64,000 nucleotides of DNA from Bradyrhizobium sp. JYMT SZCCT0428. GTDB taxonomy: Bacteria; Pseudomonadota; Alphaproteobacteria; Rhizobiales; Xanthobacteraceae. Both the position numbers and the translations under genes were made by a program. Below the pieces are notes generated by a model. It was not told the origin of the DNA. It saw only the letters and a list, made by a program, of their open reading frames with translations, and did no database searches. Positions 1 to 64,000 of this stretch are shown here, in pieces. Location of the stretch: NCBI RefSeq assembly GCF_018131075.1, contig NZ_JAFCLS010000014.1, positions 1-64,000 on the forward strand. Reading direction: 5' to 3'. How positions within the stretch are numbered: the stretch's first letter is position 1; each line of letters opens with the position of its first letter.

Positions 1-337
1 CGGGTTGCGGTGGACGCTGATGTCGCGAAGACGTAACGCGACAAAGGCGTACGGCAAAACCGTGTGGTCCTGGCGCCCGTTGCCGGCGTCAAGCTGTCGA
101 AGAAGCGCGAGCGGAAACGACAGCGACGGAGTCAACCCAGAACTCGTCTCCGGGGAGATCACGGCATAAGCCGTAAAGCCATTGCGCAGGGAAGGCCGGG
201 TGTTCTCCGCTGCCCTGTATGCTCGTGTGCAGCATTTCTTGTGCAAACCGCACACGGGACCGCGGGTGCAGCGCGCACCCGGTCTTCCCTGCGCCCTCTC
301 ATGAGAGGGCAAGGAATTTCTGGCAAAGCTCGGGCGC
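1..337 (+). repeat. Dispersed structured repeat, copy A (cut by window start)
   Basis: About 337 bases that recur in the same orientation at 62855-63192 with only scattered differences. The core is a 111-base nested hairpin at 184-294: outer arms 184-202 and 276-294 pair with one mismatch, an inner stem pairs 208-213 with 268-273, and the apical stem pairs 224-230 with 250-256. A second small hairpin follows (294-311, arms around TCATGA). The reading frame through the unit is not kept between copies (one-base length change near 140), so this is not a protein gene. I recall this kind of unit as a dispersed repeat of Bradyrhizobium genomes; that is memory, not a search. Confidence 0.85.
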
Positions 338-8404: not shown

Positions 8405-8737
8405 ATGTGCCAGCTGTTCGCGCACCAGCCGCAACGCGACTACGAATCGCAGACCCGATCGCTGCGGATCGGTGGCCATTGCACCTCGATCCGGCTGGAA
8501 ATGTCGTTCTGGGACACGCTGGAGGAGATCGCGGCGAAGGAGGGAATGAGCCTCGCGAAATTCCTTACCAAGCTGCACAACGAAGTCCTCGACCACCATG
8601 GCGAGGTCAACAATTTTGCGTCGCTGCTGCGGTGCTCGTGTCTGATCTATCGCTCCAGAAGTGCGGTGGCGGTGAGTGCCGCGGCGATCGCGGAGTTTGG
8701 CGGCACTGCGCCCGTCATTCTCGACGCGGCCGAGTAG
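8405..8737 (+). CDS. Ribbon-helix-helix domain protein (RHH_4 type)
   Basis: A 110-residue protein preceded by a good GGGAGG ribosome site. The centre, GGHCTSIRLEMSFWDTLEEIAAKEG followed by MSLAKFLTKLHNEV, looks like the alphaproteobacterial RHH_4 ribbon-helix-helix family: a beta strand carrying SIRLE then two helices. Such proteins are presumed small DNA-binding dimers; the target is unknown. The C-terminal third ending in VILDAAE has no motif I recognise. Confidence 0.75.
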   Translation: MCQLFAHQPQRDYESQTRSLRIGGHCTSIRLEMSFWDTLEEIAAKEGMSLAKFLTKLHNEVLDHHGEVNNFASLLRCSCLIYRSRSAVAVSAAAIAEFGGTAPVILDAAE

Positions 8738-8757
8738 AGTTCACGCACTTCAAATGG

Positions 8758-8788
8758 AATGCGGCCCTGTCCGGGACAGGACCGCATT
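8758..8788. terminator. Likely bidirectional hairpin terminator
   Basis: AATGCGG-CCTGTC pairs with GACAGGACCGCATT across a GG loop. It lies between the convergent ribbon-helix-helix and GMC oxidoreductase genes. There is no long T run, so termination strength is uncertain. Confidence 0.6.
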
Positions 8789-8801
8789 GTTATTCGCGCA
8801 G

Positions 8802-10370
8802 CTAGATTTCCTTGCGTTGCATCGCACCTGCGATGTGATCCGCCTGCCGGATCGCCAATGAGACGATCGTAAGCGTCGGATTGCAGGCAGCGCCGCTGGT
8901 GAACTGGCTGCCGTCGGAAATGAACAGATTCTTGATGTCGTGCGTCCGGCCGAACTTGTTGACCACGCCATCCCTTGGCTTCTCGCTCATCCGGTTGGTG
9001 CCCAGATTGTGGGTGCTGGGATAGGGCGGCGTCGGGTAGGTCACCGTGGCGCCGATCGCCTCGTAGACGGCGGCGCCCTGCTTGTAGGCGTGATTGCGCA
9101 TCGCGATGTCGTTGGGATGGTCGTCGAAATGCACACTCGCCACCGCCATGCCGAACTTGTCCTTGGCCTTGGGATCCAGCGTGATGCGGTTGGTTTCCTG
9201 CGGCATGTCCTCGCCGACCAGCCACATGCCGGCCATGCGCGGATAGGCCTCCATCGCGGCTGAGAACGGCCGTCCCCACGCGCCCGGATTGAGGAACGCC
9301 GCCATGAAGGGCACACCGATCGACAACGTTTCCATCTCGTAACCGCCGACGAACCCACGCTTTGGATTGTTGGTGGCCTCATCCCGGATGATGCCGGCCA
9401 TCGTGGTGCCGCGATACATATGCACCGACTTCTCGAACGCCGCGTAGACGCTGCCGGTCATGTGCCGCATGTAGTTGCGGCCGACCTGGCCGGATGAATT
9501 GGCAAGACCGTCGGGGAACATGGTCGATGCGCTGTTGAGCAACAGACGCGGGCTCTCGATCGAGTTGCCGGCAACCGCCACCACGCGCGCCTTCTGGCGT
9601 TGCATCGCGCCTGACGCGTCGGCATAGACGACGCCGGTCACTTTGCCCGACGCATCGTGCTCGATCTTGATCGCCATGCTGTTGGGCCGCACCTCGAGAT
9701 TCCCGGTGTCTTCACCCTTTGGAATCTCGGTATAGAGCGTCGACCACTTCGCACCGGACTTGCAGCCCTGGAAGCAGAATCCGATCTGCTGGCAGGCGGC
9801 GCGCCCATCGCGGGGCTCGCTGTTGATGGCCATGTTGCCCGTATGCACGGTCTTGTAGCCGAGCTTCCTGGCGCCGGCCTCGAGCACCCTGAAATTATTG
9901 TTGCCGGGCAGGCCGGGAATGCCGTTGGTGCGCGTCACGCCCATCTTGTCTTCGGCCTTGGCGTACCATGGCTCCATTTCGGCGAGCGTGATCGGCCAGT
10001 CCAGCAGGTTCGCGCCGGGCAATCCGCCATAGGTCGTCTTCACCTTGAATTCGTGCTCGTCGAAACGCAGCGACGCCCCGGCCCAGTGGGTCGTCGAGCC
10101 ACCGACGGCCTTGACGATCCAGGCCGGCAGGTTGGCGAAGTCCTTGGCGACCCGCCAGCTTCCCGACGTGGTGCGCATGTCGGTCCATGCGAGCTGGGTA
10201 AAGCTCTCCCATTCGTCGTTGACGAAGTCATGGTTCTCGATGCGGGCGCCGGCTTCGAGGATCACGACCTTGACGCCCTTCTGTGCAAGTTCATTGCCCA
10301 ATGTTCCGCCGCCGGCGCCTGAGCCCACGATCACCACCACGCCGCTGTCATTCAGATCGAATTTTGCCAT
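8802..10370 (-). CDS. GMC-family FAD oxidoreductase (gluconate 2-dehydrogenase alpha-like)
   Basis: A 522-residue flavoprotein starting at MAKFDLND (10370) behind a GGAGGAAA site; the open frame upstream is not used. It has the FAD Rossmann motif VIVGSGAGGGTLGNELAQ at the N-terminus, GNSIESPRLLLNSAS in the middle and THNLGTNRMSEKPRDGVV near the C-terminus, as in GMC oxidoreductases of the sugar/polyol dehydrogenase branch. It follows directly the gene for the small Tat-exported subunit 3 (10412-10960), its usual partner. No cytochrome c subunit is adjacent, so the electron acceptor is unclear. Substrate (gluconate, sorbitol or another polyol) is not readable. Confidence 0.85.
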   Translation of the reverse strand: MAKFDLNDSGVVVIVGSGAGGGTLGNELAQKGVKVVILEAGARIENHDFVNDEWESFTQLAWTDMRTTSGSWRVAKDFANLPAWIVKAVGGSTTHWAGASLRFDEHEFKVKTTYGGLPGANLLDWPITLAEMEPWYAKAEDKMGVTRTNGIPGLPGNNNFRVLEAGARKLGYKTVHTGNMAINSEPRDGRAACQQIGFCFQGCKSGAKWSTLYTEIPKGEDTGNLEVRPNSMAIKIEHDASGKVTGVVYADASGAMQRQKARVVAVAGNSIESPRLLLNSASTMFPDGLANSSGQVGRNYMRHMTGSVYAAFEKSVHMYRGTTMAGIIRDEATNNPKRGFVGGYEMETLSIGVPFMAAFLNPGAWGRPFSAAMEAYPRMAGMWLVGEDMPQETNRITLDPKAKDKFGMAVASVHFDDHPNDIAMRNHAYKQGAAVYEAIGATVTYPTPPYPSTHNLGTNRMSEKPRDGVVNKFGRTHDIKNLFISDGSQFTSGAACNPTLTIVSLAIRQADHIAGAMQRKEI

Positions 10371-17789: not shown

Positions 17790-17914
17790 GTCGTCCCCGC
17801 GAACGCGGGGACCCATACACCGTGTCGCTTCTGCCCTGAAAGGTCTTCGTTCATCGACTGTTGTCTACTACGGACGCCGGTGGTTATGGGTCCCTGCGTT
17901 CGCAGGGACGACGA
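17790..17914. repeat. Intergenic palindrome (GGGTCCCTGCGTTCGCAGGGACGAC type)
   Basis: Outer arms GTCGTCCCCGCGAACGCGGG and GGTCCCTGCGTTCGCAGGGA surround an inner part with CACCG and GGTGG. Related copies lie at 38203-38325, 46296-46417, 47877-48003 and 63244-63365. It fills the gap between ileS and lspA and would be transcribed if they form one operon. Confidence 0.88.
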
Positions 17915-17942
17915 TAGAATCTTAGACTCGCACTCCAGAATC

Positions 17943-38189: not shown

Positions 38190-38202
38190 CGAGGCAGAAC
38201 TT

Positions 38203-38325
38203 GTCGTCCCTGCGAACGCAGGGACCCATACGCCGCGGCCGATATTGTTGAAAAAGGCAGATAACGACCGCCGGATAAACCAACATCCGCTGGTGGTTAT
38301 GGGTCCCTGCGTTCGCAGGGACGAC
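38203..38325. repeat. Intergenic palindrome (GGGTCCCTGCGTTCGCAGGGACGAC type)
   Basis: Outer arms GTCGTCCCTGCGAACGCAGG and CCTGCGTTCGCAGGGACGAC are a perfect inverted pair; between them lie the short complementary parts CCGC and GCGG. It separates the convergent DUF3617 and histidine kinase genes. Confidence 0.9.
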
Positions 38326-38340
38326 AACGCTCTTTCTTTC

Positions 38341-46287: not shown

Positions 46288-46295
46288 TTTCATCC

Positions 46296-46417
46296 GTCGT
46301 CCCTGCGAACGCAGGGACCCCTAACCACCGGCATTGATTGTTAGGCAAAGCTGGAGCTCCAGCTAGCTGCTACAATGGACATTTATGGTTATGGGTCCCG
46401 GCTCAAGGCCGGGACGA
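46296..46417. repeat. Intergenic palindrome (GGGTCCCTGCGTTCGCAGGGACGAC type)
   Basis: Left arm GTCGTCCCTGCGAACGCAGG, right arm GGGTCCCGGCTCAAGGCCGG then GACGAC; the tips differ in the hairpin core (GCGAACGC versus GCTCAAGGC), while TAACCACCGG faces the complementary GGTTATG on the right. Between the tautomerase and thioesterase genes. Confidence 0.84.
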
Positions 46418-47860: not shown

Positions 47861-47876
47861 GTGCAAATACTCTCTC

Positions 47877-48003
47877 GTCGTCCCTGCGAACGCGGGGACC
47901 CATAACCACAGCCGTTTCTAGTGAAGCGAAGCAGTGGCCACAAGCAGTTTGCTTAAGCCATTGAGGCCACGGCGTATGGGTCCCTGCGTTCGCAGGGACG
48001 ACG
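47877..48003. repeat. Intergenic palindrome (GGGTCCCTGCGTTCGCAGGGACGAC type)
   Basis: Outer arms GTCGTCCCTGCGAACGCGGG and CCTGCGTTCGCAGGGACGAC; the middle contains AAGCAGTGGCCACAAGCAG. It sits between proC and the YbjN gene, both on the minus strand. Confidence 0.88.
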
Positions 48004-48016
48004 ATAGAGGAGGGAT

Positions 48017-50985: not shown

Positions 50986-51081
50986 GTCCGTAGGATGGGT
51001 AGAGCGTAAGCGAAACCCATCATCTCACCTCGTCGCAAGTCATTGATGGGTTTCGCTAGCGCTCTACCCATCCTACGACCA
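50986..51081. repeat. Inverted repeat (GTAGGATGGGTAGAGC type)
   Basis: Arms GGTCCGTAGGATGGGTAGAG and CTCTACCCATCCTACGACC pair, and AGCGAAACCCATCA pairs with TGATGGGTTTCGCT inside. It follows the ribH2 stop immediately, so it can be the hairpin end of that transcript. A looser relative (GGTGGGCTAAG with GCCCACCCTAC) lies at 44310-44397. Confidence 0.87.
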
Positions 51082-62240: not shown

Positions 62241-62498
62241 ATGCTCGAGACAATCAAATGGAACTCCCGATATAACCCTCGCGGATGGGTGACGATGGCT
62301 GGCGCGCTCGTTGTACTCCGCGCCCTGAATGCATTGCGAAAGGGTGAAAGCAAAAGGCCGCCACTCTGGAAACACTTCGACGACACCCATCATTGGGACG
62401 CAAGCGCGGAAGAATGGGTCCCCAACGATGATCGTGATCGCGCGACGCATCATGCGTCCCGCGCGCCGAATTCCGGGACTCAAGATCCCTCTCGCTGA
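62241..62498 (+). CDS. Small hypothetical protein
   Basis: An 85-residue protein with an excellent ribosome site (AAGGAGG, 6 bases before ATG). It has one short hydrophobic helix (WVTMAGALVVLRALNAL) and a polar end with several D and H (FDDTHHWDASAEEW). Unknown function. The strong site is the main support. Confidence 0.55.
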   Translation: MLETIKWNSRYNPRGWVTMAGALVVLRALNALRKGESKRPPLWKHFDDTHHWDASAEEWVPNDDRDRATHHASRAPNSGTQDPSR

Positions 62499-62854
62499 CC
62501 GGGCCCGTCGAGCGGTGCGGGCGCGACAAGTGGCTGGATCGAGATGTGTGTGCCTGCCGGCCGCTTGATAGTGGTCAAGCGATGGGCCGGCGTGGCTCAA
62601 AGCCGCCGGGTCGTTCCATGCGGATGGCAAGCCGCCGGTGTGCGGCCGGGTTTACTCATACGAACCACCGACCTTCCCAGCCCCGTTGTTGTGCGACAAA
62701 ACAACGCGACGGGCAAATCAATTCTGATTTAAAGAAATCGTGTCAAGCCCCGAAACAAAAAATATTTCGCTTTTCGCGAAGGGCAAATCAGGGGCATGTT
62801 TGTCGCCATCCCGTCCTACTCAGAAGGGCGTCGGCCGTCGTCACGGACGTTGGA
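62499..62854. other. Gene-free gap before structured repeat copy B
   Basis: 356 bases without a supportable gene. From about 62690 (CGACAAAACAACGCGACGGG, then CAAATCAATTCTGATTTAAAG) the words match, from memory, the upstream part of the same dispersed Bradyrhizobium repeat, so copy B may really start near 62690. The window start cuts the corresponding part of copy A. Confidence 0.5.
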
Positions 62855-63192
62855 CGGGTTGCGATGGACGCTGGTTTGCGCTGAGACGATGGCGTGGACT
62901 AAGCGTACGGCAAAACCGTGTGGTCCTGGCGCCCGTTGCAGGCGTCAAGCTGTCGGGTAGGCGAGAGCTGAACGGCAGCGACGGAGTCAACCAAGAACTC
63001 GTCTCCGGGGAGATCACGGCATAAGCCGAAAAGCCATTGCGCAGGGAAGGCCGGGTGTTCACCGCTGCCCTGTATGCTCGTGTGCAGCCTTTTTAGTGCA
63101 AACCGCACACGGGACCGCGGGTGCAGCGCGCACCCGGTCTTCCCTGCGCCCTCTTATTGGAGGGTGGGAAGTTTCTGGCAAAGCTCGGGCGC
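62855..63192 (+). repeat. Dispersed structured repeat, copy B
   Basis: Matches 1-337 in the same orientation. The 111-base nested hairpin lies at 63039-63149 with arms GCGCAGGGAAGGCCGGGTG and CACCCGGTCTTCCCTGCGC. Between the two hairpin copies only four bases differ (at 206, 234, 238 and 240 in copy A numbering) and all are in predicted unpaired positions. The small hairpin after it keeps its stem while its loop changes (TCATGA to TTATTG). No open frame is shared. Confidence 0.88.
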
Positions 63193-63243
63193 ATCGCGCC
63201 GCGAGATCGCGAAAGTGTGCTCAGTGCAGCAACAAAAAACACC

Positions 63244-63365
63244 GTCGTCCCGGCCTTGAGCCGGGACCCATACGCCGCGGCCCATCAATGAGAGCGCTGA
63301 CGTTTGAGACCTTCTGCAAACAATGGCCGCCACGGCGTATGGGTCCCGGCGTTCGCCGGGACGAC
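63244..63365. repeat. Intergenic palindrome (GGGTCCCTGCGTTCGCAGGGACGAC type)
   Basis: Left arm GTCGTCCCGGCCTTGAGCCG, right arm CCCGGCGTTCGCCGGGACGA; inner arms ATACGCCGCGGCC and GGCCGCCACGGCGTAT are a good inverted pair. It lies between structured repeat B and the end of prs. Confidence 0.88.
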
Positions 63366-63375
63366 AGAAGAGACG

Positions 63376-64000
<625 letters not shown>

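Follow-up and report, generated by a model that had tools for sequence, protein, structure and literature searches.

A nested hairpin repeated in a Bradyrhizobium genome is apparently the 3′ part of an undescribed structured element that probably works as RNA

The stretch of DNA analysed here (the window) comprises 64,000 nucleotides of Bradyrhizobium sp. JYMT SZCCT0428. A 111-base nested hairpin lies near each of its ends, at 184–294 and 63039–63149. The second copy belongs to a complete repeat unit of about 529 bp, which was delimited by blastn of window 62300–63400 against 30 loci of the same genome and by boundary profiles. This unit is followed on its 3′ side by a palindrome pair of the GTCGTCCC type and then by the 3′ end of a phosphoribosyl pyrophosphate synthetase (prs) gene, whose open reading frame (63376–63999, − strand; Pfam PF14572/PF00156) continues past the window. 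One family of palindromes, GTCGTCCC..GGGACGAC, forms inverted pairs that by eye resemble REP/REPIN elements, at 17790–17919, 38202–38332, 46295–46402, 47866–48009 and 63235–63372, the last being the pair directly 3′ of the second unit. An inverted repeat, CGTAGGATGGGTAGAGCG..., is located at 50989–51077, and its motif also borders some units elsewhere in the genome. At gathering scores the sole Rfam match in the window is an FMN riboswitch (RF00050, 50162–50321, 116.1 bits); nothing is matched on the element. The features of the two units are as follows.

1–386, + strand: first unit copy, truncated on its 5′ side by the contig start, which lies within P1
161–174, + strand: hairpin ACGGCATAAGCCGT, immediately before the long hairpin; a second pairing of these bases was also seen
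184–294, + strand: long nested hairpin, first window copy
294–309, + strand: small hairpin CCCTCTCATGAGAGGG
329–350, + strand: 3′ hairpin CTCGGGCGCTGTGCGTCGCGAG
368–386, + strand: boxA-like motif GCTGTTTGAAAATTGAATC, similar to a 16S leader motif of the same genome
62691–63219, + strand: complete dispersed unit
62771–62806, + strand: region of the promoter in other genera; no promoter pattern recognised in the window copy (0 of 31 units of the genus match)
62807–62861, + strand: P1, 5′ stem-loop CATCCCGTCC ... GGACGGG (helices 1–2)
62837–62843, + strand: conserved P1 loop GTCGTCA
62860–63040, + strand: multibranch domain closed by P2, TGCGATGG with CCATTGC (helices 3–10)
63039–63149, + strand: long nested hairpin, second window copy (helices 11–13)
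63149–63164, + strand: small hairpin CCCTC/GAGGG (helix 14, 77.5% paired)
63184–63205, + strand: 3′ hairpin CTCGGGCGCATCGCGCCGCGAG (helices 16–17)

Folded on the + strand, both hairpin copies form three nested stems, with energies of −80.0 kcal/mol (184–294) and −78.2 kcal/mol (63039–63149). Compared with 200 dinucleotide shuffles of each copy, the z scores are −9.84 and −9.51, and the folds of the − strand are weaker (−66.6 and −72.1). These coordinates and folds reproduce those from which the original prediction started. The two copies differ only at 206 (T/A), 234 (A/C), 238 (C/T) and 240 (T/A), and all four positions are unpaired in the consensus structure. The prediction that every difference falls on an unpaired base therefore holds for the family fold, but not for the minimum-energy fold of the first copy taken alone, in which base 234 lies within a small additional apical stem not conserved in the family. 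The next hairpin, CCCTC/GAGGG, had also been described as keeping its stem. It does so in both window copies, but is merely 77.5% paired across 84 members. The finding of the hairpin itself stands; what was missed is its scale, as it forms one domain, apparently the 3′ part, of a structured RNA element of about 400–600 nt that has apparently not been described before.

The multibranch domain contains GTACGGC, the GTGTGGTCCTG motif, CCGGGGAGATC and ACGGC/GCCG. For the bases of the hairpin at 161–174 there is an alternative pairing, as the family consensus joins GCCG to the upstream ACGGC. In divergent members, more conserved structure was found upstream of the long hairpin. The distance between the 5′ motif and the hairpin was determined in the 47 copies of the window's genome with a recognised motif: it is 252–265 nt in nine copies, 330–346 nt in 36, and 309 and 318 nt in the remaining two. 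A tertiary pairing between TCGTC of the P1 loop and a downstream GACGA gave a covariation score that was reached by 158 of 500 shuffles; the bases vary too little. In eight loci of one genome (L386–L393, G161) an alternative domain, GGCGCCCCCGCGCC...AATGGGGG(T/C)GATGACG, is located 3′ of the hairpin, and it is found with variation in some other genera. This domain could form a C-run/G-run pseudoknot.

The consensus obtained with RNAalifold on 117 non-redundant units, a set that still held three overlapping or opposite-strand matches, consists of the P1 stem-loop, a long-range stem closing the multibranch domain, the nested hairpin and two 3′ hairpins. Covariation was analysed on a separate MAFFT alignment of 84 units, namely 83 of 86 selected units plus the window copy, the three overlapping or opposite-strand matches having been dropped. 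Over 107 pairs, 92.6% of the cells are paired, compared with 86.0% in shuffled alignments and 33.9–46.5% with slid partners. Changes on both sides are observed in 59 of the 107 pairs (shuffled mean 40.6, slid 29–40) and in 554 cells (shuffled mean 166.4, slid 83–116), and the covariation score is 0.272 (shuffled 0.162, slid 0.047–0.076). Not one of 500 shuffles reached any of the five measures. The nested hairpin, formed by helices 11–13, has 36 pairs, 17 of them changed on both sides. Because the structure was derived from the alignment used for counting, the percentage paired is favoured, and the selection of units by patterns resembling the consensus favours conserved members; one row (L218) is poorly anchored at its 5′ end. 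Among 51 divergent hairpins that were folded, the nested stems are kept and the arms are rewritten, for example from GCGCAGGGAAGGCCGG to GCGTGCGGAACGCCGG with matching 3′ arms; two of these hairpins (L080 and L222) adopt a different fold when folded alone.

Compensatory change is also seen within the window's own genome. Across 67 copies, pairing persists in 99.6% of 2678 paired cells, and 52 cells have changed on both sides, compared with a shuffled mean of 17.4 and a maximum of 27. Non-consensus bases make up 4.0% of paired positions versus 15.0% of unpaired positions in the same copies, in line with the proposal that conservation is focused on the fold. The flanks had been described as more variable than the hairpin and shifted in frame. 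In 30 copies the consensus identity is 0.975 for hairpin columns versus 0.875 for the rest of the unit, and of 487 indels relative to the window copy only 45 have a length divisible by three. The covariation within the genome and across genera supports the suggestion, made in the original prediction, of a structured RNA or a DNA hairpin acted on by a protein instead of passive repeat drift. The part of its refuting condition that called for absent covariation is thereby not fulfilled.

The two strands are not equivalent. G-U pairs occupy 293 cells in the 67 own-genome copies and A-C only three, with nine other mismatches; for the 117 units the corresponding numbers are 1526 and 264, with 883 other mismatches and 10537 Watson-Crick cells. 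The consensus fold has an energy of −252.8 in the sense direction versus −227.0 in antisense. The G-U/A-C asymmetry indicates that the + strand is the selected one, as RNA or as single-stranded DNA. Since G-T wobbles also pair in single-stranded DNA, strand-specific structure does not by itself separate these two possibilities.

A covariance model of the hairpin (R1), built from 33 sequences, was used to search for genomic copies, as had been proposed. Among the matches listed for the window's genome there are 82 sense-orientation hairpin places (E ≤ 8.7e-26; 150 of 4992 candidates scored); of the other entries among the 134, we interpret 51 as the opposite-strand counterparts of these places and the last as a separate, weak one. 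The assembly consists of 180 contigs, many of which have a unit copy at their start or end, and some copies at contig ends were possibly counted twice. By codon-score gene calls, no predicted gene covers the hairpin in 66 of 67 own-genome copies. The hairpin was detected by blastn in 90 of 98 genomes of the genus, and by R1 with stricter filters for large searches in 91 of 248 genomes of the family, representing 15 of 47 genera. A search of 297 genomes at the level of the order gave 10 positives, all from the same family. The contigs with the 5′ core, among the matches listed, are mostly from Bradyrhizobium and also from Afipia and Rhodopseudomonas. Among the 123 core-pattern matches listed in named and viral contigs, the hairpin accompanies 92 and is missing from eight, and 23 are too near an end to judge; several of the eight appear interrupted.

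No match to the element was found in phages. One partial match in plasmids and three in viral contigs all lack the hairpin; of the latter, one (L371) resembles chance and the other two carry the 5′ part. A phage or plasmid element was rejected on these grounds. In one predicted viral contig (L373, about 8500–9000) the similarity to the element ends inside the GTGTGG motif, and the breakpoint adjoins an open reading frame with an AlpA domain (PF05930, 26.9 bits, cut-off 21). A break at this place raises the possibility that proviruses use the RNA gene as an attachment site. At four further loci (L268, L273, L331 and L335) the element stops partway, resembling insertions into it; L268 runs into a reading frame that is transposase-like by eye.

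Individual sites differ between genomes. Next to prs, the hairpin is present in one congener (G014) and was not found in the 16 others that could be judged; a further genome (G012) was left out of this comparison because a contig end cuts the site. The sister genomes G312 and G084 have the hairpin next to prs and many sites in common. Three copies have left and right flanks that match different places in a sister genome, with the partners inside contigs. The flanks of L185 are split relative to L025 and L008 of the window's genome, with G084 agreeing with G312; those of L204 are split relative to L128 and L020, also of the window's genome, and those of L188 relative to L195 and L169 of G084. 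These split flanks suggest recombination between copies, and misassembly is not excluded. For 13 hand-picked pairs at shared sites, the units are 0.887 identical and the flanks about 88–97%. The partner at the same site is the closest copy in one of the 13 pairs and within the closest three in six. Average cross-genome pairs, with an identity of 0.785–0.853, lie below the site partners, indicating that the mixing of copies is partial. The 20 copies from each sister genome were drawn from the matches most like the window copy, so this comparison is biased.

Just 5′ of P1, a strict TTGAC-15/18-TATA pattern is present in 17 of 34 units from outside the window's genus and in none of 1297 control windows. 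This set combines an earlier one (14 of 31 units, 0 of 1209 control windows) with three Afipia records. The other 17 units lack the strict pattern, and one of them (L078-) is an opposite-strand match. Of 20 copies taken from G283 and G161, 19 have the 5′ core and 18 of these carry TTGAC by eye. No operator common to the promoter spacers emerged from a pattern search, whose five matches all lie at the element itself. None of 31 units from the window's genus carries the strict promoter pattern, against 2 of 1209 control windows; these units could still have a degenerate or different promoter. The expression of the window's copies is therefore the weakest link in the argument.

A motif like GCTGTTTGAAAATTGAATC is present at the 3′ end of 30 of 138 units and in none of 127 control windows (up to three substitutions), and is missing from 108 of the 138. 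A match with up to four substitutions lies 245 nt (G000) and 258 nt (G161) before 16S rRNA, at two of the four 16S loci seen; the two loci of G283 have GTTGTTTGACAAG alone, by eye. The core common to the unit tails and the 16S leader motif is GCTGTTTGA. The tail motif resembles boxA, an antitermination signal.

We interpret the element as a dispersed family of structured noncoding RNA genes that carry a promoter in related genera, and estimate the probability of this reading at roughly three in four. There are no transcript data: transcription and action as RNA are inferred from the promoter in related genera, the strand bias and the covariation. The structure, strand bias, spread, promoter pattern in other genera and partial mixing of copies are results of computation; that copies in the window's genus continue to be expressed is an inference. 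The fullest form, seen in related genera, comprises a sigma-70-type promoter, P1, the long-range stem with its multibranch domain, the nested hairpin and the 3′ hairpin, with a boxA-like tail added at the 3′ end of some copies. RNA polymerase would transcribe the + strand, and the product would fold and act as RNA, most likely by binding a protein, itself inferred, through the conserved unpaired motifs. Copies occupy intergenic DNA in any orientation and are partly mixed, apparently by recombination among themselves. The element probably works as RNA, its fold being kept while its sequence changes. The many copies, which have no neighbour in common, are also compatible with a selfish element that does nothing for the cell. 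A bolder and quite tentative possibility is a bacterial counterpart of a SINE: a promoter-bearing structured RNA gene with an rRNA-like boxA tail that has multiplied, is selected for its fold and is partly homogenised, and that either serves the cell as a multicopy RNA or uses the rRNA antitermination machinery (NusB/S10) to secure its own expression.

The same fold could instead be read in single-stranded DNA; the unit would then be a non-autonomous transposable element, and a transposase or integrase encoded elsewhere would bind its folded + strand. The high copy number, the intergenic positions in any orientation, the variable presence at the prs site and the wobble pairing available to single-stranded DNA all agree with this, as does the observation that copies are more alike within species than between species. 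The absence of a recognised promoter from the 31 units of the window's genus strengthens it further and weakens the RNA-gene reading. However, 66 copies show no clear excess of terminal inverted repeats (terminal run 4.8 versus 4.3 shuffled) and no clear target-site duplication (flank word 2.8 versus 3.2 random), and MITE features were rejected for this reason. None of the 19 downstream neighbours scanned with Pfam is a transposase, and of nine upstream neighbours scanned one is, of the IS1595 family. A clean joined empty site was not found in relatives, where differences in presence and absence are seen; the flanks of one copy (L175) have no long match in two sister genomes, and contig ends confound a candidate case (L184). 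Nor would a transposon end be expected to carry a promoter and a multibranch fold of more than 100 pairs. The strand asymmetry together with the promoter in related genera favours RNA over DNA; we consider the single-stranded DNA explanation unlikely, without being able to exclude it.

Three other explanations are less likely still. A cis-acting leader or terminator of a neighbouring gene, for example one of the boxA antitermination type, would account for the boxA-like tail of some copies and the upstream promoter in relatives, and by our reading the closest gene predicted downstream runs on the same strand at 12 of 19 loci in other genera. However, gene orientation shows no preference in the 40 own-genome copies with genes on both sides (12/10/10/8). 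The Pfam families of the 19 downstream neighbours scanned are diverse, three of these genes (at L351, L366 and L370) having no Pfam family, and only SLT_2, a lytic transglycosylase, recurs. With orientation unbiased and neighbours mostly unrelated, a leader or terminator of a particular gene was rejected as very improbable. The SLT_2 gene adjoins the element in two genera (L354 and L363; g20 and g40), so at least one site may be common to genera. A passive or REP-like repeat with no selected nucleic-acid function is suggested by the other palindromic repeats around the unit, and is ruled out in practice by the compensatory changes within the genome and across genera. Protein coding is implied by some public annotation: on a Bradyrhizobium plasmid (L406, NZ_CP100605.1) an annotated hypothetical protein runs antisense through a partial match to the 5′ domain, the only annotated partial copy seen. 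That match lacks the hairpin, however, 442 of the 487 indels are not multiples of three, and each of the six frames contains on average 2.4–3.1 stops in the 117 units. We regard coding as having next to no chance of being correct. The preferred reading remains a family of structured RNA genes.

Among Bradyrhizobium and its relatives are major soil bacteria and the symbionts of soybean. A large RNA element of conserved structure, present in dozens of copies and with no Rfam match on the loci tried, would be a missing part of the biology of these bacteria. In some genomes the copies detected number one or a few and have clear promoters, which makes the function open to testing by deletion. The element also bears on how a structured RNA gene spreads and evolves in concert, and on rearrangement at its copies.

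Comparison with known systems gave no identity. In a search of eleven loci against Rfam with E values up to 1, the matches were a tRNA and two microRNAs below threshold, and by their coordinates none falls on the element; two further loci (L384 and L386) returned no match. Known Rfam families, including OLE, ROOL, GOLLD, HEARO and the group II introns, were set aside, as none matches the element, on the loci tried, at curated or permissive thresholds. No description of it was found in searches of the open-access literature. REP and REPIN elements are CGTC-tagged short palindromes; the unit is more than ten times longer and is not a short palindrome pair, whereas the neighbouring palindromes of the window do resemble them by eye.

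The Br-REP1 and Br-REP2 repeats of Bradyrhizobium japonicum USDA 110 are, like the element, intergenic repeats of the same bacterial group. As far as the accessible portion of their description goes, they are palindromic and found in sRNA candidates of 3′ untranslated regions (PMC5082802), but at 20–40 nt they differ in size. Their published consensus is missing from the unit with eight substitutions allowed and from the window with four, and identity with them was rejected. The main text of a paper on transcription start sites in B. japonicum, in the portion available, contains neither ‘repeat’ nor ‘ncRNA’ (PMC4842269). Closer in behaviour are the mobile/repeat sequence candidates (MRSC) of a survey of GC-IGRs (PMC11109978), which, in the accessible sections, are covarying motifs in many copies with inconsistent gene orientation, frequently but not obligatorily next to transposases or integrases. 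Bradyrhizobium, Rhodopseudomonas and Nitrobacter go unmentioned in the available main text. One of them, MRSC-65-2, is described there as a single long stem with UYCCGG repeats, unlike the multidomain element with its own promoter in relatives. The element meets the MRSC criterion of many copies without consistent orientation, and on what is accessible of that survey this is the nearest available label. By size and complexity, the nearest kind, from the part of the source at hand (PMC12286853), is that of ROOL, GOLLD and OLE, which share with the element a length of several hundred nucleotides, an elaborate covarying fold and a poorly understood function. ROOL and GOLLD are described in that part as encoded by phages or prophages, often near tRNA islands, whereas copies of the element are scattered through intergenic DNA of the chromosome, 82 hairpin places being counted in a single genome among the matches listed.
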